DNA from: Bacteroidota bacterium
GTDB taxonomy: Bacteria; Bacteroidota; Ignavibacteria; Palsa-1295
Assembly: GCA_018266755.1 (NCBI GenBank)
Contig: JAFDZW010000001.1
Location: 397,635 to 461,634, forward strand
Direction of reading: 5' to 3'
Length of the DNA stretch: 64,000 nucleotides
Position 1 is the stretch's first letter. The number at the start of each line of letters is the position of its first letter. Of this stretch, positions 21,758 through 46,482 are shown one piece after another. Under the pieces are notes generated by a model. The model searched no databases. It was given only the letters and a program-made list of their open reading frames with translations, and was not told the origin of the DNA. The position numbers and the translations under genes were made by a program.

Positions 21758-23749
21758 TTACTCCGTCACGATCGCTTTATGCATGACATCGCCGGACGGC
21801 GTGTGCAATACGACGAAGTACGACCCGGACGGAAGTTCGAGCGCTTTCGCGTCGAACGAGAACGAAGTCTGCTCGCCTTCGCCAAGCGAACGGGGCTCGG
21901 AGCTATAGCGGCTATGGCCCTGTAGATCGACGATCTCCATACGCACCACACCCGCAATGCGCGCCGTGACGCTGACCAGTGCCGTCGTCTTGAACGGATT
22001 CGGGACGAGCGTCATCTGGAAGTTGTGCTCGGCTTCGGGGCGTACCGAACCGTTATCGGGCCGCTTCGTGCCAACTCCACTGAGCGTTGCGGTCAGGATC
22101 GAATCCGGTCCGGGCGTTTCGGTGAGGCTGTCGCGATAGACGATCGTCAGTGTTGCGTTGTAATTCTTTTCAGCGGTCGGTTTGAACGAGACATTCAAAT
22201 TCAGCGTACCCAAACCGTTGACGGTCACCGGGAAGCTCGGAGCGCCGACGAGCGAGAATGCAGAGGCATCCGCACCCCCGATCGTTGCCGAGTGAACGAT
22301 GATCTTTCCGGATTTGATATCCGTCACGGTCACGCCTTTTTGGGCAGTCGTCGAATCGCTATAGACATTCCCGAAGTCGAGGGTCGAGCTCGAAAGCGAC
22401 CCGACGCCACGAACGTATGGTGGCGGCGGTGCTGCGACCGGAACGTGGCCCATGAAAATCGGCTGGCGTTCGATTTCGTTCGTGTTATTGACGACGAGAT
22501 AGCTCTTGTTCGATGTGCCATCGTAGAGATAGATCGCCGAGGCAGCCGGTGTGACCGATTGGTCCGATGCGCAGGTAATGAACACAACGGAGTCGCCAGT
22601 CGGTGAGAACATGATATCTCCGCCCGAGCCGTATGGGCCACCCGACGACGACGAGATCGTCTCGTTCGAATCTTCGATATCCACCGAGTTGCGGGTGAAG
22701 CCGCTGAGAATCAAAAGATTCTTATCGGGTACGGCAGAGCCCGGGATCGAGAAGCTGTTCGGGTCCGGGATGAGCTGCGTGATACCGTTCGAAATCGGGA
22801 ATTGGAAGAAATTCATGTTTCGCGTCTTGCGTGCGAAGAGTCCGAGCTCGGCTTTGTCCGGTGTTTCGGGCAAGCTGCGAAGTGTAAAGCCGAAGATGGA
22901 ATCGATGTTCCAATAGACGTCGGAGCTGAAGCCTGTCACGAGATTTGTGATGTTGCTCGTTTGCATCGTGACGTTTCCGCCCGAGGCGCCTGGCGTCCAG
23001 CGCACGATAACCATACGGATTGCATCGGTTTGCTGCACATTCTCGCTCAATGCGGCGAGCATGGTCTTGCCGCTGGCGTTCGTAATGAGATTCGTCATCT
23101 TGAAGCCGGCGATCGGCGCGTCGGATCCTCGGAGCGTCGCGGTATCGGTAATGCCGCTGCCGTCGAAATTGCCGTGGAAGAACTGTACGCTGTCGCCGAC
23201 CGACGTTCTGCGCCAGGTGCCATACCATTCTTTGCCGTCGGGCGAGAGCACGCCGAGCGGCAACGGCTTCTGCGGCGTCAGTGTGTTGGAGTAATATACT
23301 CTGAGCACATTGAAGATGTGGTTGTTGTCCTTCGTGCCGAAGCGGATCGGGCGATTGGCAGTAGTGCCATCGGTTGCGGTGATATAACATCCCTTGAGCG
23401 AGTACGGACTATCGAGGCGTGCAAAGCATTCGAAGCTGTCCATCGCACTGAACTGCGCGTTATAGAATGTCAGCCGGCAGGCGATCAACAGCGACTTTCC
23501 ATCGGCGCTCGATGCGAGCGCAGCGATATGGCTGGGATGAAAATACCCATTGACGCCCACTGTGCCGACCGTACGGATGAGCGTATCGACCGACGACGAG
23601 CCAAGCTTCTTTGCGTAAATAGCGGTGCGGTCGGCATGTTCGTACGCAATGCGCGCCGTATCGGGGATTGTTTGTGCCGTTGCGAGCGAATGCATCGCGC
23701 TGAGGAAAAGCACGAGCATGGCCACATGGCGGAGATGATGACGGTTCAT
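21758..23749 (-). CDS. T9SS cargo protein with choice-of-anchor-D/ASH-like domain
   Basis: 663 residues: signal peptide (about 1-26, ending SLATAQ); an N-terminal propeller-like region of about 400 residues with repeated SPDGK-type turns (SADGKSLLI, SPDGKEW, SPTGDSVVF); an ASH/choice-of-anchor-D-like immunoglobulin domain at about 455-560 (STLDFGNVYSDSTT ... VSFKPTAEKNYNATL); and a type A T9SS sorting domain from about 580 (LVPNPFKTTALVSV ... GSYFVVLHTPSGDVMHKAIV). It would be carried across the outer membrane and attached to the surface or released. Function is unknown. TATCTTTG at 23801-23808 is a possible promoter. Confidence 0.85.
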   Translation of the reverse strand: MNRHHLRHVAMLVLFLSAMHSLATAQTIPDTARIAYEHADRTAIYAKKLGSSSVDTLIRTVGTVGVNGYFHPSHIAALASSADGKSLLIACRLTFYNAQFSAMDSFECFARLDSPYSLKGCYITATDGTTANRPIRFGTKDNNHIFNVLRVYYSNTLTPQKPLPLGVLSPDGKEWYGTWRRTSVGDSVQFFHGNFDGSGITDTATLRGSDAPIAGFKMTNLITNASGKTMLAALSENVQQTDAIRMVIVRWTPGASGGNVTMQTSNITNLVTGFSSDVYWNIDSIFGFTLRSLPETPDKAELGLFARKTRNMNFFQFPISNGITQLIPDPNSFSIPGSAVPDKNLLILSGFTRNSVDIEDSNETISSSSGGPYGSGGDIMFSPTGDSVVFITCASDQSVTPAASAIYLYDGTSNKSYLVVNNTNEIERQPIFMGHVPVAAPPPPYVRGVGSLSSSTLDFGNVYSDSTTAQKGVTVTDIKSGKIIVHSATIGGADASAFSLVGAPSFPVTVNGLGTLNLNVSFKPTAEKNYNATLTIVYRDSLTETPGPDSILTATLSGVGTKRPDNGSVRPEAEHNFQMTLVPNPFKTTALVSVTARIAGVVRMEIVDLQGHSRYSSEPRSLGEGEQTSFSFDAKALELPSGSYFVVLHTPSGDVMHKAIVTE

Positions 23750-23917: not shown

Positions 23918-25579
23918 ATGCGACGACTCTCGTTCCTTGTCATCCTGCTTTGCCTTACGCCAGTCATGCTTCACGCCCAAACGTTCGAGTGGGCGAAGAC
24001 GGGGCATGCATCAATCAATGCCTCCGGCGAATGCCTCGTTGCCGAACCCGACGGTTCGTTGTTGCTCGGCGGGACATTCTTCAATAATATCGATCTCGAC
24101 TCGGAGCAGCTATTCTCCTCGGGGCGCGATATCTTTCTTGCTCGCATGAATACGCAAGGCAAACGCATCTGGGCGAAGCGGTACGGCGGGAGCGCCGACG
24201 ACTTTCTCTTCGACCTGAAGTCGGACAAATCCGGGGACATCTATATCACAGGAGCCTATGCGTATCGCATGACGATGGGCACTTCGATGCTCGAATCGAA
24301 CGGTCAGCAGGATGCATTCGTCGCGAAGCTTGCGCCGAACGGCGATCCGCTGTGGGTACGGTCGTCCGGCGGATATAATAGCGATTTTGGCGTGGCCGTC
24401 GCCGTGGATGCCAAAGGCAATGTGTATAACGCTGGATATTTCCACGACACGATGAGCTTCGGTGCGATCAAGATCACAGGGTGGAATGCAGGATTGATGA
24501 CCATGTACCTGGCGAAATACGATAAGGACGGGAAGTGTTTGTGGGCGAAGCCGCTCGGTTCGTCGAGTTATCAAAGCCAATTCGAAGGAGTCTCGCTTGC
24601 AATCGACGCATCGGGAAATGTCGTCGTTGCCGGAAATTTTCATGGGGATGCACATCTCGATACGGCAGCGATTACTGCAAAAGGCGTCGCCGATCTATTC
24701 GTTGCTAAGTTTACGCCGTCGGGTTCGCTGCTCTGGAAACAAACGGCCGGGGGGCCGACCGGGGCGGTGAATGCGCGCTCTGTTGCGCTCGGCAAGGGCG
24801 GACGCATACTCATCTGCGGATACATCACCAACAACGCGCAGTTCGACAAGACTACCATCATTCAATCACCGCTCGGATTCTCCGATGTGTTTCTCGCAAG
24901 TTACTCGTCCAAAGGACAGTTCGAGTGGGTCAAACAAGGGACGGGCCACGGCCCGAAAGTCGGCGTGAGCGTGGCGACTGACGAAGAAGGCAATAGCTAC
25001 ATCACCGGCGACTTCAAGGACACGCTGGATTTCGGCGGCGTGCAACTTTCCGGCGAAGGAAAACAAATCTTCTACGCGGCATCGTACTCGCCGACAGGAA
25101 CGCTGCGATGGGCACGCGAAGCGGGCCGAGGCGGCTTCGTGTTTGCAAAGGCAATTACCGTCGACAAGCAGGGGAGCGTGTATGTTACCGGGACGTACAA
25201 CGATACAATCGGATTCGGCAAGCATGTTGTCATTGGTGCGATTGCGGCACAAGATATGTTTCTGACAAAGATCGCCCCGCATAGTCTTTGGAGCATGCAC
25301 CGGATCTCCGAAGCTCCGGCACAAACAGAGGAAATCACTGCATGTACAGTTGATAAGCGCAGCCACTCGCTGAACGTCACCTTCAGCGTCAACGGCTCGC
25401 ACTACGCCAAGCTCGGCCTCTTCGATATGCTCGGCGAGACCGTCGAGACATATACCGAAGAACAGCTTTCGAGCGGGACGTATGAAGTCAAGATTGATCT
25501 TGCGAACGTCGAGGCCGGTGCCTACTATTTGCGTCTGCGCCTCGACAACGATAAGTCGACAAAACGGATCGAATACTAA
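23918..25579 (+). CDS. T9SS cargo beta-propeller protein (SBBP-like repeats)
   Basis: 553 residues. The signal peptide is MRRLSFLVILLCLTPVMLHAQ. About seven repeats of roughly 55 residues follow, each with a D-(I/L)-F-x-A-x-(Y/F) strand, a G-x-x-x-W-(A/V) step and a (V/I)-Y-(I/V)-(T/A)-G strand, the pattern of SBBP/beta-propeller repeats. The last ~85 residues (SLNVTFSVNGSHYAKLGLFD ... GAYYLRLRLDN) look like a T9SS sorting domain without the usual P-N-P opening. Probably a surface protein that binds other proteins or polymers. It is 26 bases upstream of the peptidase-barrel gene and probably co-transcribed with it. Confidence 0.82.
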   Translation: MRRLSFLVILLCLTPVMLHAQTFEWAKTGHASINASGECLVAEPDGSLLLGGTFFNNIDLDSEQLFSSGRDIFLARMNTQGKRIWAKRYGGSADDFLFDLKSDKSGDIYITGAYAYRMTMGTSMLESNGQQDAFVAKLAPNGDPLWVRSSGGYNSDFGVAVAVDAKGNVYNAGYFHDTMSFGAIKITGWNAGLMTMYLAKYDKDGKCLWAKPLGSSSYQSQFEGVSLAIDASGNVVVAGNFHGDAHLDTAAITAKGVADLFVAKFTPSGSLLWKQTAGGPTGAVNARSVALGKGGRILICGYITNNAQFDKTTIIQSPLGFSDVFLASYSSKGQFEWVKQGTGHGPKVGVSVATDEEGNSYITGDFKDTLDFGGVQLSGEGKQIFYAASYSPTGTLRWAREAGRGGFVFAKAITVDKQGSVYVTGTYNDTIGFGKHVVIGAIAAQDMFLTKIAPHSLWSMHRISEAPAQTEEITACTVDKRSHSLNVTFSVNGSHYAKLGLFDMLGETVETYTEEQLSSGTYEVKIDLANVEAGAYYLRLRLDNDKSTKRIEY

Positions 25580-25605: not shown

Positions 25606-28527
25606 ATGCGACGAACGATCCTCCACGCCGCCTTCAGCGATGCGGTTCGACAGCGAACGGCATCTCTGTGTGTTGCATTGCTCATCCTCTTCGGGAGTGC
25701 TTCGCTTGTTCACGCGCAGATACCGTTTCTCGGAATATTGGGCGCAGGGCATCCGGAGCTCCGGTGGTATCAAATCGAAACGGCGCATTTCGTCATCGTC
25801 TATCATAACGGTCTCGATTCTATCGCCGAGCGTGCTGCGCCGATTGCAGAAGAAGCGTATCGGGTTGTGACGACGAACCTGCACACGCCGCTTTCGAAGA
25901 AAGTGACGATCTATTTTTCGGATAACGACGAAGTAAAGAATGCCTTTGCATTCAACGACGATCACATCTTTATTTGGATGCGCGGTATCCTCGACGATCT
26001 GCCGTATGGCATCCGGTCCAGCGGGAATGCGAAGTGGCTTCGAACGGTCATTACACACGAATTCACGCATATCGCGGTGGCGCACGCGACGAAGGACTGG
26101 ACGTCGTTTGTTTTCCCGGGTACGAATGTTCCCCGTTGGTTCAACGAAGGATTAGCGCGAACGATGGAGCCGGACGGCTACACGCCCGATCTCGACCAAC
26201 TCATGCGAGTCGCGACCGTGTACGACGAACTCGACCTCGGTGGAAGCGACAATTACTTCGCCGGTACGATGGCGTATGAAGCAGGGCACTCGTTCATTCG
26301 CTATCTGCTCGCACAGTTCGGTCCGACGGTCATCCAGAAACTGCTTGACTTCCGTGATGGCGCTGGGGCATTCGATTTCGAAAAAGCATTTCGTGACGCG
26401 ACAAAAAAACCATTGCGTGATGTGTACGACGAATGGCACAAGACGATGACCGTGTACTATGCGTCGGGGTACGGAGCACGTTCGGAGACGAATGAGTTCG
26501 GGCGCAAGCTGCCCTGCGAGGTCCCGGTGGTGCTCGCCGCGCGGATCGCACCTCACGACAATCGCATTGCGCTCATCGGTCGGCGCACCGCGCACAGCGG
26601 AGCGAGATTATATCTGATGCAACACGATACCGTCGGTACGGTCGAGCTGCTGAGCGACGAACCGGGGATCGAACCGTATCTGTCGTGGGATTCCGACGGT
26701 CGGTCGGTCGTGGTATCGAAGCTGCGTATCGGAACGAACGGCGATCTGCTTCACGATCTCTATCGTGTCGAAATTGCAAACGGCAGCATGACCCGGCTGA
26801 CTGACGACGGACGATTCGAGGAGCCGGATGTCGCGCCGAACGGCGATGTCGTTGCAGTCCATACGACGAAAGGACATTCCGACTTAGTAATTATTCATCC
26901 TGACGGATCGCAGACAATGCTTACGCACTATGACGATCCGAACGTGCAGGTCTATACACCACGCTATTCGCCCGATGGGAAGCAGGTCGCGTATTCGCTC
27001 TTCTATCGGAACGGCTCGCGCAGTATTTCATTTGTCAGCGTCGCAGGCGCAGGAAAAGCGAACGCGTCTCTCCGCGATGTGAGTTGCCGTCAGCCGGTGT
27101 GGTATGGTGAGGGCGGGATGGCATACACGAAGGTCAACAGCAATGGATTCAGTGTGTGGATGAGCCCGCCGGGCGGTGATCTGATCCACGGCACTTACCC
27201 AACTGCGGCAGGCGGGGTGATGGCATGGGATTATTCACCCTGGAAGGATTCTCTACTGGTCACATCGTTCGACCGCCGATCGAGCATTCCACTCTATTGG
27301 ATATCGAACCGTGGTACCACCGGCGTGCGCGATACACTGGCACTGATGCCGAAGTACACCGCCTGGCACGATACACATTTTCCGTTGCTGCCACGACCGG
27401 AAGATTCGCTGCCACAGATTACGGCACTGTCGCCGTCGTCGTATAATTCACTTCTGCATATTCAGCCGCTGGTGTTTCTGCCGGTGCTGCAAAGCGATAA
27501 AGGCTCGGATGCACGGCCCGGACTTCGGTACGGCCTTACATCGATTCTGACCGACCCGATGCAGAAACATCAGTTTGTGCTCTTCGCGGACTACGGAGAC
27601 CATAGTCATCGCTTCGGCGGGTACGCACAGTACACGAACGCGCAGCTCGATTTTCCGGTCCTGGTCACACTCTCGGACCTGTTCGGGTATGACAGGGTCA
27701 TTGCTGGATTGCCGCTGTATCAGCATACGCAAGAGATCGGTCTCGCAACGCAATACACGTTTCATGCGCCGAATGCACTCGATGTTGCCCACGTCGTGAG
27801 CCTCGAGGGGGCACTGCGCCGAATGGAGCCACGCAATAACGGCCGTATCTTCGATTCGCTCTCGGATGTCAATCATCGACCGATCGACATTCGATATATG
27901 CAGTCGAATATCCGCTACCGATTTCTCTCGCCATCGACCACGATATCCGCCTCGCTCGAGTTAGGAAGTCCGACCGACGACCAGACCCAACGCTTCGAAC
28001 GCGTCGATCTTTCTGTGGCGCATCACTTTTCGTTCAACGAGGACCGCACCGTGTATCTCGGACTTCGCGGACTTGCGACCGCACAATTCGGCATGCAAAT
28101 TCCGCAGGACTATGTCGGCTTCACGACCGACGAAGTCTTCGAGCAAGGATTCAATCCGAATTCGCTGCGGCCTCCGACACGTCTCAGAGGTATACGCCGA
28201 GCGTACTACGGCGACCGCCTGGTGCTCGGCTCGGCGGAAATCGTTTTTCCGGATCGCATCTTTTCGTCGTTGACTCCGCTCATCGGGGTGCTGAAACCTG
28301 CGTTCGTCGGATTTTTCGATATGGGCAGCGTCTGGTACAACGCAACACCCACAAACTTTCTGCCTGTCGTAACGACCTCCCTTGCGCAGACCCAATGGCT
28401 CAAGAGCTATGGCGTCGAACTACGCGTCGGCTCCGAAGGAGCGTTGACGGCTGCGTTCGGATTGGGGTATGAAGTGAAGATGCATCCGGCGCCGGATTGG
28501 TATTTTCGGTTGAATACCGGGTTGTGA
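25606..28527 (+). CDS. fusion of HExxH metallopeptidase, TolB-like propeller and outer-membrane barrel
   Basis: 973 residues. After an N-terminal signal/anchor (about 18-38) comes a gluzincin-type peptidase domain: HEFTH at 151-155 and a downstream Glu in FNEGLA at 181, as in the clan MA peptidase_MA-like family. Residues about 300-600 have WD40/TolB-type turns (WDSDGRSVVVSK, YSPDGKQVAYSLF). From about 640 to the end the sequence is beta-barrel-like, with long amphipathic strands and Arg/Gly-rich loops (RLRGIRRAYYGDRLVLGSAE) as in BamA/surface-antigen barrels. The barrel would anchor the peptidase at the outer membrane. All zinc-ligand positions are intact. Confidence 0.8.
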   Translation: MRRTILHAAFSDAVRQRTASLCVALLILFGSASLVHAQIPFLGILGAGHPELRWYQIETAHFVIVYHNGLDSIAERAAPIAEEAYRVVTTNLHTPLSKKVTIYFSDNDEVKNAFAFNDDHIFIWMRGILDDLPYGIRSSGNAKWLRTVITHEFTHIAVAHATKDWTSFVFPGTNVPRWFNEGLARTMEPDGYTPDLDQLMRVATVYDELDLGGSDNYFAGTMAYEAGHSFIRYLLAQFGPTVIQKLLDFRDGAGAFDFEKAFRDATKKPLRDVYDEWHKTMTVYYASGYGARSETNEFGRKLPCEVPVVLAARIAPHDNRIALIGRRTAHSGARLYLMQHDTVGTVELLSDEPGIEPYLSWDSDGRSVVVSKLRIGTNGDLLHDLYRVEIANGSMTRLTDDGRFEEPDVAPNGDVVAVHTTKGHSDLVIIHPDGSQTMLTHYDDPNVQVYTPRYSPDGKQVAYSLFYRNGSRSISFVSVAGAGKANASLRDVSCRQPVWYGEGGMAYTKVNSNGFSVWMSPPGGDLIHGTYPTAAGGVMAWDYSPWKDSLLVTSFDRRSSIPLYWISNRGTTGVRDTLALMPKYTAWHDTHFPLLPRPEDSLPQITALSPSSYNSLLHIQPLVFLPVLQSDKGSDARPGLRYGLTSILTDPMQKHQFVLFADYGDHSHRFGGYAQYTNAQLDFPVLVTLSDLFGYDRVIAGLPLYQHTQEIGLATQYTFHAPNALDVAHVVSLEGALRRMEPRNNGRIFDSLSDVNHRPIDIRYMQSNIRYRFLSPSTTISASLELGSPTDDQTQRFERVDLSVAHHFSFNEDRTVYLGLRGLATAQFGMQIPQDYVGFTTDEVFEQGFNPNSLRPPTRLRGIRRAYYGDRLVLGSAEIVFPDRIFSSLTPLIGVLKPAFVGFFDMGSVWYNATPTNFLPVVTTSLAQTQWLKSYGVELRVGSEGALTAAFGLGYEVKMHPAPDWYFRLNTGL

Positions 28528-28591: not shown

Positions 28592-28661
28592 TACCTCCAA
28601 ATGAATTTTCACCACTTTCTCCCACAAATGTCGTATATTCGCAGGAGCCAGTTTGCAGGTG

Positions 28662-28979
28662 ATGCGTAAATCAAAGTTAAAACAAAAACTAAAGAAGATA
28701 CTCAAGTCCCCGAAGCTGCTGCTGATCGCTGCGGTCATTATGACCATCTCCGCAACTCTGTTATTTGCAAACAAAGGCATCTGGCGTCATATCGCGTTGC
28801 GCGCCGAAGTCGCAAGCCGCCAATCCGAAATTTCCGCGCTGAACCTCGAAGAACGGCAGCTCACATCGCGCGTCGATCTGCTCTCGAAAGAAGAGCCGAC
28901 GATGATCGAACGCATCGCCCGCGAGCGCTACCACCTCAAGCGCGTCGGCGAAACGATCTACCGCGAAGAGAAGAAGTGA
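28662..28979 (+). CDS. FtsB/DivIC-like septum formation initiator
   Basis: 105 residues from the ATG at 28662 (MRKSKLKQKLKK), with AGG just upstream; an in-frame TTG at 28653 is an alternative. A basic cytoplasmic start, one membrane helix (LLLIAAVIMTISATLLFAN), a coiled coil (EVASRQSEISALNLEERQLTSRVDLLS) and the family-typical ending with IERIARERYHLKRVGETIY identify the FtsB/DivIC family. These bitopic proteins help assemble the divisome with FtsL and FtsQ. A TATATTCG box at 28634-28641 lies just upstream. Confidence 0.88.
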   Translation: MRKSKLKQKLKKILKSPKLLLIAAVIMTISATLLFANKGIWRHIALRAEVASRQSEISALNLEERQLTSRVDLLSKEEPTMIERIARERYHLKRVGETIYREEKK

Positions 28980-29046
28980 ATTGCATTCACCCTCAGGGTG
29001 TTTGAAGTGTCCGAATTCACAACGCGATCCAATCAACCCCCTGCGA

Positions 29047-30021
29047 ATGGACCAATCCGTCGAACAATCCGCCCTATCCCAGAATCTCGCCATCGGTGTT
29101 GATATCGGTGGCACATCCATCAAATTTGCCGTTGTCGATCTCGACAAAGGAAAGACCGTTAAGGACACCTCGTGCCCGACGCCGAATGCGACAGCCGACG
29201 AAATTGCCGCGTTGGTTGCACGCTACGTGAACGTACTCGTGCACTCCTATCCCGATATTTCCGCCGTGGGGATGGGCGTCCCCGGTGCGATGAACCCGGA
29301 GCGCACGATGGTGCACTATCCGCCGAACTTCACGCACTGGACCACCGAGCCGTTCGCCGAGATGGTTGCCTCGAAACTGGTGACGATCGACAAAGTGATG
29401 ATGGATAACGATGCGAAATGTGCGGCACTTGCCGAGATGCATTTCGGCTCGGCGAAGAACGAGAAATTCTTTTTACACGCAACGCTCGGCACGGGCGTCG
29501 GCGGGGCGATCGTCAGTGACGGCGAAATTTATCGCGGCGCGTTTGGCGGCGCGGGCGAGTTCGGGCACGTGATCGTCGATTGCAACGGCCCTGTGTCGCT
29601 CTCCGGTATCCGCGGCGTGCTCGAAGGATATATCGGCCAGCGTTACCTCTCCGAGCGGACGATCGAAAAACTTGCGAAGTATAAGAAGGAAACGCCGCTG
29701 CGTCAGTTTGTGTCGAGCGGCCATCTCGAGCCGAAGCAGATCGCCGAGGCTGCCGCTGCAGGCGATGCATTCTCGACAGAGGTGCTTGCCGAAGCGGGGA
29801 AATACCTCGGTGTTGCGATGGCGACAGTCGCATCGCTGCTCGATATTCGTCTCTTTATCGTTAGTGGCGGCGTCGCGCAGGCAGGAGACATCCTTCTCGA
29901 ACCGGCGCGAGAAGCGCTGCGTGCAAACGTACTCGAGCAGCAGCGCTCGTCCGTCGAGATTCGAGCATCGAAGCTCGGCACGAAAGCCGGCGTGATCGGT
30001 GCGGCGCTTTTAACAGTGTAA
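29047..30021 (+). CDS. ROK-family sugar kinase lacking the Cys zinc motif
   Basis: 324 residues from the ATG at 29047 (MDQSVEQSALSQ), preferred to a TTG at 28981 that would add 22 non-family residues. The ATP-binding phosphate-1 motif is VDIGGTSIKFAVVDL; the substrate loop and catalytic Asp are in DNDAKCAALAE; GTGVGGAIV and the late GGVAQAG match ROK glucokinases. The zinc signature normally reads GH(x)nCxCGxxGCxE; here the region is EFGHVIVDCNGPVSLSGIRG followed by VLE, keeping the His but losing three of the cysteines. Probably a glucokinase-like enzyme for glycolytic entry; specificity uncertain. Confidence 0.85.
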   Translation: MDQSVEQSALSQNLAIGVDIGGTSIKFAVVDLDKGKTVKDTSCPTPNATADEIAALVARYVNVLVHSYPDISAVGMGVPGAMNPERTMVHYPPNFTHWTTEPFAEMVASKLVTIDKVMMDNDAKCAALAEMHFGSAKNEKFFLHATLGTGVGGAIVSDGEIYRGAFGGAGEFGHVIVDCNGPVSLSGIRGVLEGYIGQRYLSERTIEKLAKYKKETPLRQFVSSGHLEPKQIAEAAAAGDAFSTEVLAEAGKYLGVAMATVASLLDIRLFIVSGGVAQAGDILLEPAREALRANVLEQQRSSVEIRASKLGTKAGVIGAALLTV

Positions 30022-31138: not shown

Positions 31139-33982
31139 ATGCGCTCATCCGAATTTCGCGTGTTTCTTTCTTCTACGTTTCGGGATCTTCAGCCCGAACG
31201 CGAACAGCTCGTCAAAAAAGTATTTCCGCGCATTCGTGCTGTGTGCCGCGAGCGCGGCGTCGAGTTCACTGAGATCGATCTGCGCTGGGGGATCACCGCC
31301 GAAGAATCGCGCTCCGGCAAAGCGGTTCGTATTTGTCTCGACGAAATCGGTAAGTGCGCGCCGTATTTCATCGGCATCCTCGGCTCGCGCTACGGTTGGG
31401 CCCCTGGGCTTGACGAGTTACAGAAGGATGGCGAATGCCTCGAACGCTATCCGTGGCTCGAAGAACTTGGCCGCGAGCACAAGAGCATCACCGAGATGGA
31501 GATCACGCACGGAGCACTGCATCGCGATACGACAGACTCCGCCTTCTTTTACGAACAGGTCTCGCGTCTCGACGACATCCCCGACTACGAACGTGAGAAA
31601 TTCGACTCACTGAAGCATCGCATCCGCGAGCGTGGCTTTGCCTGCCGCATGTTCGCGTCGCCGGAAGAACTCGGCGAGCACGTCTATCGCGATCTCCTTG
31701 CGCTCCTCGACCGCGATTATCCGATCGAACAAGAGCTCACGCCCGTCGAGCTCGAGCGTGCCCCGCATCTTGCGTACTCCGTCAATCGCCGCCGCAGCTA
31801 CGTCGCGAACCCGGAGTACTTACGCCGATTCGAAGCACATGTCGATTCCGACGACATCCCGCTCATCCTGTGGGGGCGCTCGGGTCTCGGTAAGAGCGCG
31901 CTCGTCGCGTATCTGACACACGAGTATAAGAAGCAGCATCCCGACGCATTTGTTATCTCCCACTTCATCGGCGCAGCCGCGGCGGGCAGCGATCCCGAAG
32001 ACGTCATGCGGCAGGTGATGATGGAGATCAAAGAGCGGTACGCGCTCGATGACGAGATCCCGCAAGACGACCAAAAGATCCGCGAGGAATTCCCGGCATG
32101 GCTGGCGAAAGTGCAGAACGAGAAGCTGATATTGGCAATCGACGCACTCAACCAGCTTACTGGCGTCGCCGAAGAACTGCACTGGCTGCCGGAGTTCATC
32201 CCATCTCACGTTCGTCTCGTCGTCTCGACAACGCCGGGACATACGCTCGAACAGCTTCGCAAGCATCAGTGGCAGGAGTTGGAGTTGCAGCCGCTCGACG
32301 TGCCGACGCGCGAGCGCATAGCGAACGAGTATCTGCTGCAATATAACAAGAAGCTCACGCCGGAGCAGCTTGCGTTCATCGCGAACGATCCGAAGTGCGA
32401 GAGCCCGCTCTTCCTTCGCACGCTCATTGAAGAGCTGCGCGTCTTCGGTCGGCATACGACGCTCGACGAGCATATTGCAAGTTATCTTGCCTCACGAGAC
32501 GAGCGAGAACTCTTCGCGCATATCCTCGCTCGCATGGAAGACGATTTCGGCGAGGCGACCGTGCGCTCGGTGATGCAGACGATCTACGCTTCGCGCTATG
32601 GCTTGTCGCAAACGGAGCTGTACGGCATCACGAAACTCTCGCAGCTTGCACTGAGCGAATTCCTGATCGCGCTCGAGTACCACCTCATGCAGCGCTCGGG
32701 TCTCTACACGTTCTTCCATAACTACCTGCGCGAAGCAGTCGAGGCGCGCTACCTCTCTACGGAGGAAGACCTGCGCTCCGCCCACCGCACCATCGCCGAG
32801 TACTGGACCACCCAACCCTACACCACCCGCCGCCGCGACGAAGAACCCTGGCAGTGGCAGCAGGTAGGGGATATGACCCGACTTCGAGATTGTCTGCTTG
32901 CACCCGGCATGGTGGCAATGCTCGATACCGATCACGAACGCTACGAAGCGTTCGGGTTCTGGCGGACGCTCGGAGGTGTTGAGATCGAACCAGGGTATGG
33001 CCGGACGCTGCTCAATTCGGGGCTGTCGGCGAAGCGAATGGTGGAGGCATTCTTGAACACGATAGACCTCCTCGTCCTTGCAGATGAACACCACAAAGCG
33101 GAGGCACTATTCAATGCGGGACGTCACGAATTCGAGTCGCTCGGCATCGTCGAGGAACAGCGCCTCTGGCTTCGCGAACGTGAGATACTCATCCTCAATC
33201 ACCTCGGCAGAACGGACGAAGTCATAGCGCGTACCGAAGCAATGCTCGCAGACGAGAAGGCAATGTCGGTTCACCCAACGTTGAGGATCGAACTACTTGA
33301 TAATCTTTCACATGCATATTCACGGGTGGATAATTTTGCCGAAGCTGAACGAATAATTCGTATCTCTATTGATGAAAGCAAAGAGATCTACGGCAACTAC
33401 AGCCCAAAATTGTTTCCGAGACTTAATAGTCTTGCAAGCAACCTAACATTCCAGGGACAATTTGAAGAGGCTGAGAAATACTTGTCAGAATTAGTTCATG
33501 GTACCATAGAACAAACAGGATACGAACACCCTAGTGTTGCGTATCAACTGATGCAACTTGCCAGTTGTAGGACACTTGCAGGAAGACTAGATGGAGTTAT
33601 TGAGGATCTTGAAATTGCTGAATCTATCTTTATCAAGACGTTAGGAAAAGAACACTTTTACACATGCAATTGTGGGTTGCGCTTAGCGGAAGCAAAACGT
33701 TTGTTGAATGATTTCGTGGGTGCTTGCTCGATTCTGACCGATATTATGGAAATAATGGAGCGGAAGTATCCAAGACACCTTGAGACCGCAGTCTGGGGCA
33801 TTGCGTTAGGTTTCAATTACTACCTCATGGGCGATTATGCTTCAGCTATCCCATACTATGAGAAATTCTTGCCACGATTAGTGGAATTACTTGGTGTCGA
33901 TAACCCAGAAGTCGTCAGAAGAAGGGATCGGCTTGCAGAAATGAAAGAGAAATTATCTCAGGTGTCGCCAAAAATACGGTAG
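31139..33982 (+). CDS. DUF4062 - STAND NTPase - TPR protein
   Basis: 947 residues. An N-terminal DUF4062 domain (about 5-90: FRVFLSSTFRDLQPER ... YFIGILGSRYGWAP) is followed by a STAND/NACHT-like NTPase with Walker A GRSGLGKS (246-253) and Walker B LILAIDALNQL (330-340), a helical/WHD region, and C-terminal TPR repeats (about 660-947) of kinesin-light-chain style. The same order occurs in eukaryotic nephrocystin-3 and in bacterial STAND proteins, several of which act in anti-phage defence or signalling; the role here is inference. From about 33290 the DNA becomes clearly richer in A/T with TTA, AGA and ATA codons, so the TPR tail seems to have a different origin. Confidence 0.85.
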   Translation: MRSSEFRVFLSSTFRDLQPEREQLVKKVFPRIRAVCRERGVEFTEIDLRWGITAEESRSGKAVRICLDEIGKCAPYFIGILGSRYGWAPGLDELQKDGECLERYPWLEELGREHKSITEMEITHGALHRDTTDSAFFYEQVSRLDDIPDYEREKFDSLKHRIRERGFACRMFASPEELGEHVYRDLLALLDRDYPIEQELTPVELERAPHLAYSVNRRRSYVANPEYLRRFEAHVDSDDIPLILWGRSGLGKSALVAYLTHEYKKQHPDAFVISHFIGAAAAGSDPEDVMRQVMMEIKERYALDDEIPQDDQKIREEFPAWLAKVQNEKLILAIDALNQLTGVAEELHWLPEFIPSHVRLVVSTTPGHTLEQLRKHQWQELELQPLDVPTRERIANEYLLQYNKKLTPEQLAFIANDPKCESPLFLRTLIEELRVFGRHTTLDEHIASYLASRDERELFAHILARMEDDFGEATVRSVMQTIYASRYGLSQTELYGITKLSQLALSEFLIALEYHLMQRSGLYTFFHNYLREAVEARYLSTEEDLRSAHRTIAEYWTTQPYTTRRRDEEPWQWQQVGDMTRLRDCLLAPGMVAMLDTDHERYEAFGFWRTLGGVEIEPGYGRTLLNSGLSAKRMVEAFLNTIDLLVLADEHHKAEALFNAGRHEFESLGIVEEQRLWLREREILILNHLGRTDEVIARTEAMLADEKAMSVHPTLRIELLDNLSHAYSRVDNFAEAERIIRISIDESKEIYGNYSPKLFPRLNSLASNLTFQGQFEEAEKYLSELVHGTIEQTGYEHPSVAYQLMQLASCRTLAGRLDGVIEDLEIAESIFIKTLGKEHFYTCNCGLRLAEAKRLLNDFVGACSILTDIMEIMERKYPRHLETAVWGIALGFNYYLMGDYASAIPYYEKFLPRLVELLGVDNPEVVRRRDRLAEMKEKLSQVSPKIR

Positions 33983-46181: not shown

Positions 46182-46269
46182 CATGGCCTGCGACGATAAA
46201 TTTGTATTAACTCCGTGGTGGCGCGGAACTCTGGCCGTGTTTGAAGTGTCTCATACCCTGCACGTAGAA

Positions 46270-46430
46270 ACGCCTGTTAGGTGAGGCTACTGAATGAAAA
46301 AAAGCTGCTGCCCGGAAATGTCGAGAGACGCCAATGGGTAGAACAGGTTTTGCCGGATTAAGGCTTAACATAACGCAGCTTTCCGAGTGGATCGGAATAC
46401 GTTGTTCAGTGCTAAAACTCTACAAGGGGG
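46270..46430 (+). promoter_or_regulatory. M-box (ykoK) Mg2+ riboswitch aptamer
   Basis: The conserved aptamer core is easily read in order: GTTAGGTGAGGCTAC at 46275, GCTGCTGCCCGGAAATGTC from 46304, GAGAGACGCCAATGGGT from 46323, AACAGG, TTAAGG, CGCAGCT at 46374 (pairing partner of the GCTGC element) and CAGTGCTAAAACTCTAC at 46407. These are the signatures of the M-box family that senses intracellular Mg2+ and shuts off downstream genes when Mg2+ is high. It lies 92 bases upstream of the porin ATG and is followed by a terminator. Confidence 0.95.
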
Positions 46431-46482
46431 CATCTGCTTGATGTGCGTCGGGCCGTGGGGTTCGGCGAGCGTCAGCACTCAT

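Follow-up and report, generated by a model that had tools for sequence, protein, structure and literature searches.

A conserved bacterial protein that joins a predicted gluzincin peptidase head to a TolB-like propeller and an Omp85-type barrel

Introduction

What might a single bacterial protein do that seems to carry a metallopeptidase, a propeller, and an outer-membrane barrel in one chain? The question is raised by a gene in a 64-kb window (the whole stretch of DNA analyzed here, 64,000 nucleotides). A first-pass annotation of this DNA had proposed that the product is a self-anchored envelope metallopeptidase, which could process cargo of the type IX secretion system (T9SS) or assemble outer-membrane proteins. 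We asked how far fold, residue conservation, distribution, and gene neighborhood bear this out.

Results

One reading frame encodes the three domains

The gene is one unbroken open reading frame (25606-28527, +) with an ATG start, 973 codons, and no internal stops. Its features are as follows:

25606..28527, +, whole gene, peptidase-propeller-Omp85 barrel protein, 973 aa
25606..25716, +, predicted Sec signal peptide, residues 1-37 (...LLILFGSASLVHA, followed by Q), read from the sequence
25747..26475, +, predicted gluzincin peptidase head, residues 48-290
26056..26070, +, HEFTH zinc motif, residues 151-155
26146..26148, +, Glu181, predicted third zinc ligand, within WFNEG
26275..26277, +, Tyr224, likely catalytic tyrosine, within YEAG (Y-x-x-G in the family)
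26503..27306, +, TolB-like beta-propeller, residues about 300-567
27463..28518, +, predicted 16-stranded Omp85-type outer-membrane barrel, residues 620-971
28180..28191, +, RLRG, a loop motif of the Omp85 (V/L)RG(F/Y) type, residues 859-862

The signal-peptide-like N terminus ends in VHA, and the residue after it, Q38, is nearly invariant among relatives in a 54-member alignment. An AlphaFold2 model of the whole chain, calculated from 54 aligned sequences taken from the 64-kb window or from genome contigs, reached a mean pLDDT of 83.7 and a pTM of 0.85. Its secondary structure (DSSP) runs from an alpha/beta head (54-290) through the propeller (300-567) and short helices to 16 long strands (620-971). 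The same order of peptidase, propeller, and barrel was found wherever full proteins of relatives were inspected. Thus, the open reading frame, the domain matches, and the model agree with the claim of a single 973-residue chain holding all three parts. Structure prediction, which the first-pass annotation had proposed as its own check, returned both a barrel and, as to fold and residue identity, a gluzincin peptidase site. A search with PADLOC gave no match for this protein.

The head resembles gluzincins and keeps its active site in all relatives checked

Pfam Peptidase_M48 (PF01435) matched the head with 24 bits against a cut-off of 20.3, covering only positions 9-84 of 186, while Peptidase_MA_2 stayed just under its cut-off (27.8 versus 32.4 bits). 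Comparison of a head profile with sequence families of the PDB placed fragilysin (E=0.018) and BepA (E=0.075) nearest, both of them weak matches. Folded alone, the isolated head gave a pLDDT of 84.9, and Foldseek aligned it, at E 6e-5 to 1e-3, with three kinds of gluzincin: aminopeptidases of M1, collagenases of M9, and lugdulysin of M30. The head thus matches the thermolysin/M1-like catalytic fold of this group (clan MA(E)), and the HExxH motif with a downstream Glu ligand, which also marks the group, is present in the 973-aa protein and in the relatives checked.

The zinc-site residues H151, E152, H155, and E181 were invariant in alignments of 54 and of 81 relatives. Because these two sets had been recruited in part through HE/WFNEG patterns, we added 50 further relatives that had been recognized by a profile of the whole domain or by similarity over the whole protein, in 20 cases without motif selection. 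All 50 retained the HExxH motif, the Glu, and the tyrosine of the Y-x-x-G motif, and the active-site residues were still kept in the 20 of them that are remote (profile E 1e-96 to 1e-73). Tyr224 is likewise invariant and, judged from the fold match, is likely the equivalent of the catalytic tyrosine of M1 peptidases. We therefore rejected the reading of the head as a pseudo-enzyme, as none of the relatives checked, including the 20 chosen on whole-protein similarity only, lacked the active-site residues. The intact HEFTH-plus-Glu zinc site reported in the first-pass annotation is thus confirmed as a conserved feature. Together, fold and residue identity support well the prediction that the head is a gluzincin zinc peptidase.

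The family is widespread in Bacteroidota/Chlorobiota and neighboring phyla

Each of the 197 genomes that we sampled from the class had relatives, mostly as open frames of about 1000-1100 aa. Because of this conservation at full length, a chance open reading frame or a frameshift artifact can be excluded. A scan of the genome contig collection with a single protein gave no relative, while an alignment-based scan of the same collection found 385 stretches that encode one, corresponding to at least 385 species. Their titles name Ignavibacteriae, Kapaibacterium, Chlorobiota, Rhodothermia, Balneola, and Gemmatimonadota as well as KSB1, Calditrichaeota, Zixibacteria, and Latescibacteria, so that the family ranges over Bacteroidota/Chlorobiota and neighboring phyla.

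Full-length close relatives with about 38-51% identity occur in two families (f1 and f4), and in a tree the 973-aa protein groups with them with a support of 0.998, followed by types from Rhodothermia/Balneolia (0.99). This group stands apart from the main type, which has a longer insert after HExxH. The host genome carries two copies, the 973-aa protein and a remote HELVH paralog of 1044 residues on contig 5. The protein is typical of its lineage and not an oddity. In one further genome, a head-domain match lies within an open reading frame of 2063 aa, roughly double the length usual in the family (G482:C7:63507-64343), which is a possible further fusion.

The propeller is TolB-like and the barrel is of the Omp85 type

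The propeller matched TIGR02800 (TolB) with E=2e-13 and 49.9 bits, below the equivalog cut-off of 343. A search of the PDB with the single 973-aa sequence retrieved TolB only (E=1.3e-7), and the family profile strengthened this match to 1.9e-29. TolB and the propellers of S9 peptidases also appeared in the Foldseek list of the model, in agreement with the WD40/TolB-type repeats noted earlier. The 973-aa protein therefore has propeller sequence and fold in common with TolB, which is itself a free periplasmic protein with neither peptidase nor barrel.

For the barrel region, PF01103 remained sub-threshold when searched from one sequence (Pfam, E=0.026). In the model, however, the tail described earlier as BamA-like forms the 16 strands of a BamA/TamA-type barrel, and Foldseek against the PDB ranked BamA, Sam50, and TamA first (E about 1e-8 to 1e-7). 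A loop-6 motif of the RGF/Y type is also found. It reads RLRGI in the 973-aa protein and (R/K)(G)(Y/I/V) in most relatives, with G862 kept in 66 of 75 sequences and R/K861 in 73 of 75. Pfam detected no POTRA family match in the chain, and in the model it is the propeller and the short helices that precede the barrel. POTRA domains are not required in non-POTRA Omp85 subfamilies (PMC4104836).

A subfamily of this kind, WD40-Omp85, was described in 2014 by Heinz and Lithgow, who proposed that it resembles a BamA-BamB fusion (PMC4104836). As far as the main text of that survey goes, its members share with the 973-aa protein a TolB-like propeller that precedes an Omp85 barrel and the lack of a recognized POTRA domain, while the peptidase head is absent from that text. 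Since its propeller is joined to an Omp85 barrel, the 973-aa protein probably belongs to this subfamily. Our literature searches for the combined architecture retrieved no paper except this survey, and in the text available from these sources a peptidase head is not mentioned. Thus, the kind of protein in which a propeller joins an Omp85 barrel is already known, and the conserved peptidase head is the feature for which the literature searched holds no description. General family models detect mainly the TolB-like propeller, which masks the enzyme. PF00149, which we take to be the metallophosphoesterase (calcineurin-like) family and not a peptidase, had no Pfam match in the 973-aa protein. This family defines the "Metallo" subfamily called metalloprotease-Omp85 in section 10 of the survey (PMC4104836). 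True peptidase-Omp85 proteins appear to be those of the type of the 973-aa protein rather than the PF00149 subfamily.

These features raise the possibility that the protein is an assembly or translocation factor, in which the barrel would insert or export clients, the propeller would stand in for POTRA domains or BamB, and the peptidase would trim or release the client. The retained loop motif, the matches to BamA, TamA, and Sam50, and the proposed likeness of WD40-Omp85 proteins to a BamA-BamB fusion (PMC4104836) point in this direction. However, the chain has no recognizable POTRA domain, and a separate true BamA is encoded elsewhere in the host genome (TIGR03303, 408 bits versus a cut-off of 297), the locus of the 973-aa protein not being among the matches to this BamA equivalog model in that genome. 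Because of this BamA, we do not regard the 973-aa protein as the general insertase. Conservation is moreover centered on the head, as the alignment of 54 members has most of its invariant columns before residue 290. PlpD, a patatin-like Omp85 protein, provides a further counterexample, since its barrel leaves the enzyme in the periplasm (PMC11116518). We therefore consider this explanation rather unlikely.

A periplasm-facing, BepA-like protease is the favored reading

On balance, we lean toward the view that the protein is an outer-membrane-anchored gluzincin zinc endopeptidase that faces the periplasm and acts on envelope proteins, in quality control or maturation, similarly to BepA. The predicted barrel, the gluzincin fold, and the fully conserved active site give good support to the idea of a self-anchored envelope metallopeptidase put forward in the first-pass annotation. 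For the rest, we infer a periplasmic orientation, catalytic activity, a class of substrates, and a docking role of the propeller as follows. The chain would be exported by Sec, and its C-terminal Omp85-type barrel would fold into the outer membrane. The head and the propeller would hang on the periplasmic side, at the place that POTRA domains take in other Omp85 proteins. The propeller could, like those of TolB or BamB, serve as a docking platform that offers envelope proteins to the zinc site, and the latter may cleave outer-membrane or surface proteins that are immature or wrongly assembled. The net result would be a quality-control or maturation protease of the BepA kind built onto its own barrel.

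The periplasmic placement follows from two considerations. The barrel is even-stranded and the head precedes its first strand, so both chain ends are predicted to be periplasmic. In addition, PlpD, like the 973-aa protein, carries an enzyme head on an Omp85 barrel, and this head has been located experimentally in the periplasm; it differs in being a lipase and in having a POTRA domain and no propeller (PMC11116518). The same observations bear on the idea that the protein is a surface peptidase, whose barrel would export its own head for the digestion of extracellular protein. Surface export was once proposed for PlpD (as discussed in PMC11116518 and PMC4104836), and the fold of the head resembles that of secreted collagenases. 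Yet the PlpD head turned out to be periplasmic, and the even-stranded topology would keep the head and the C terminus in the periplasm unless they were actively exported, which makes a surface location highly improbable.

BepA, an M48 peptidase, is like the 973-aa protein a gluzincin and acts in the periplasm at the site of outer-membrane assembly, where it handles LptD at the BAM complex (PMC8423444). In the 973-aa protein, the peptidase instead shares its chain with a propeller and a barrel. Pfam found no C-terminal TPR as in BepA. Against the BepA-like reading, the sequence likeness is weak, and the fold neighbors of the head belong to M1, M9, and M30 rather than M48. BepA itself is a soluble, TPR-containing protein that associates with BAM as a separate chain. 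A role in outer-membrane assembly may be argued only by likeness to Omp85 proteins and BepA. Protein assembly or translocation is the usual task of Omp85 barrels, and hence the barrel of the 973-aa protein may do more than anchor it. The wide conservation and the two paralogs in the host genome fit a general envelope role.

An active head would mean that an uncharacterized protease built into an Omp85 barrel occurs in hundreds of species, and it would partly explain how these bacteria keep outer-membrane biogenesis under control. A bolder and distinctly doubtful extension is that Bacteroidota/Chlorobiota possess a self-contained second machine for outer-membrane quality control, with barrel, client-docking propeller, and protease in one chain, possibly tuned to T9SS-related proteins. 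In proteobacteria, the functions that such a machine would unite are divided among the separate proteins BAM, BamB, and BepA.

The link to T9SS is weak

The peptidase gene has the following neighbors:

23918..25579, +, SBBP-propeller gene with a T9SS C-terminal sorting domain, possible operon partner
28653..28979, +, DivIC/FtsB-like gene
28981..30021, +, ROK-family kinase gene

The upstream gene has SBBP repeats and a Por_Secre_tail match just above the cut-off (27.8 versus 27, Pfam), and the gap of 26 bases between this T9SS cargo gene and the peptidase gene, as given in the first-pass annotation, is exact. Such an arrangement could indicate a T9SS-linked protease, an anchored peptidase that would act at the outer membrane to mature or clear the cargo or the components of type IX secretion. 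The neighbor was, however, retained only in the two nearest genomes (L022/L003 and L028/L004). Elsewhere in the family, other genera have in its place a gene resembling a metallo-beta-lactamase-fold protein (by eye) or unrelated genes, and in the sister family the preceding gene varies. The check on neighborhood conservation thus went against a lasting partnership with the cargo gene. The downstream DivIC and ROK-kinase genes are more widely kept. Among the neighborhoods of relatives compared, we found no conserved envelope-assembly operon around the peptidase gene, which also counts against the quality-control reading.

Using the translocon protein SprA (TIGR04189, over cut-off) as a T9SS marker in samples from three phyla, we found it in all 29 family-bearing genomes tested, which come from several phyla. 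Within the host phylum, 227 of 296 genomes had SprA and 192 of 296 the head, and at the level of Bacteroidota SprA was never missing where the head match was strong (E<1e-20). Conversely, many SprA-positive genomes of the phylum (for example, most of family f37) matched the head marginally or not at all; hence, T9SS does not need the peptidase family. SprA was near-universal in the other two phyla sampled (42/42 in one, where the head was also found in 42/42, and 52/53 in the other), so that co-occurrence cannot separate a T9SS link from shared ancestry. Head and SprA occur together in every phylum checked, yet both are long-standing traits of one group, and common ancestry would by itself account for their one-way association. 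Although co-occurrence is high, T9SS as an obligate partner is unsupported, and a role in processing T9SS cargo, as proposed earlier, is unlikely.

Outside Bacteroidota, almost every genome in our samples had SprA over the cut-off; KSB1, Latescibacterota, and Gemmatimonadota are among the contig titles concerned (L110-L117). This range is wider than the classical view, in which SprA and T9SS are confined to Bacteroidetes.

Three other elements of the window deserve mention. A second protein with a T9SS sorting domain (21758-23749, -), whose choice-of-anchor D domain falls just under the cut-off, is encoded divergently from the propeller gene at 23918. Downstream, 31139-33982 (+) encodes a STAND-like DUF4062-NACHT-TPR protein of 947 aa with no PADLOC match, relatives of which also lie near the peptidase gene in L023 (3323-6433, -) and L031 (2621-5605, -). 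Last, an M-box (magnesium) riboswitch lies at 46266-46437 (+, 144.9 bits).
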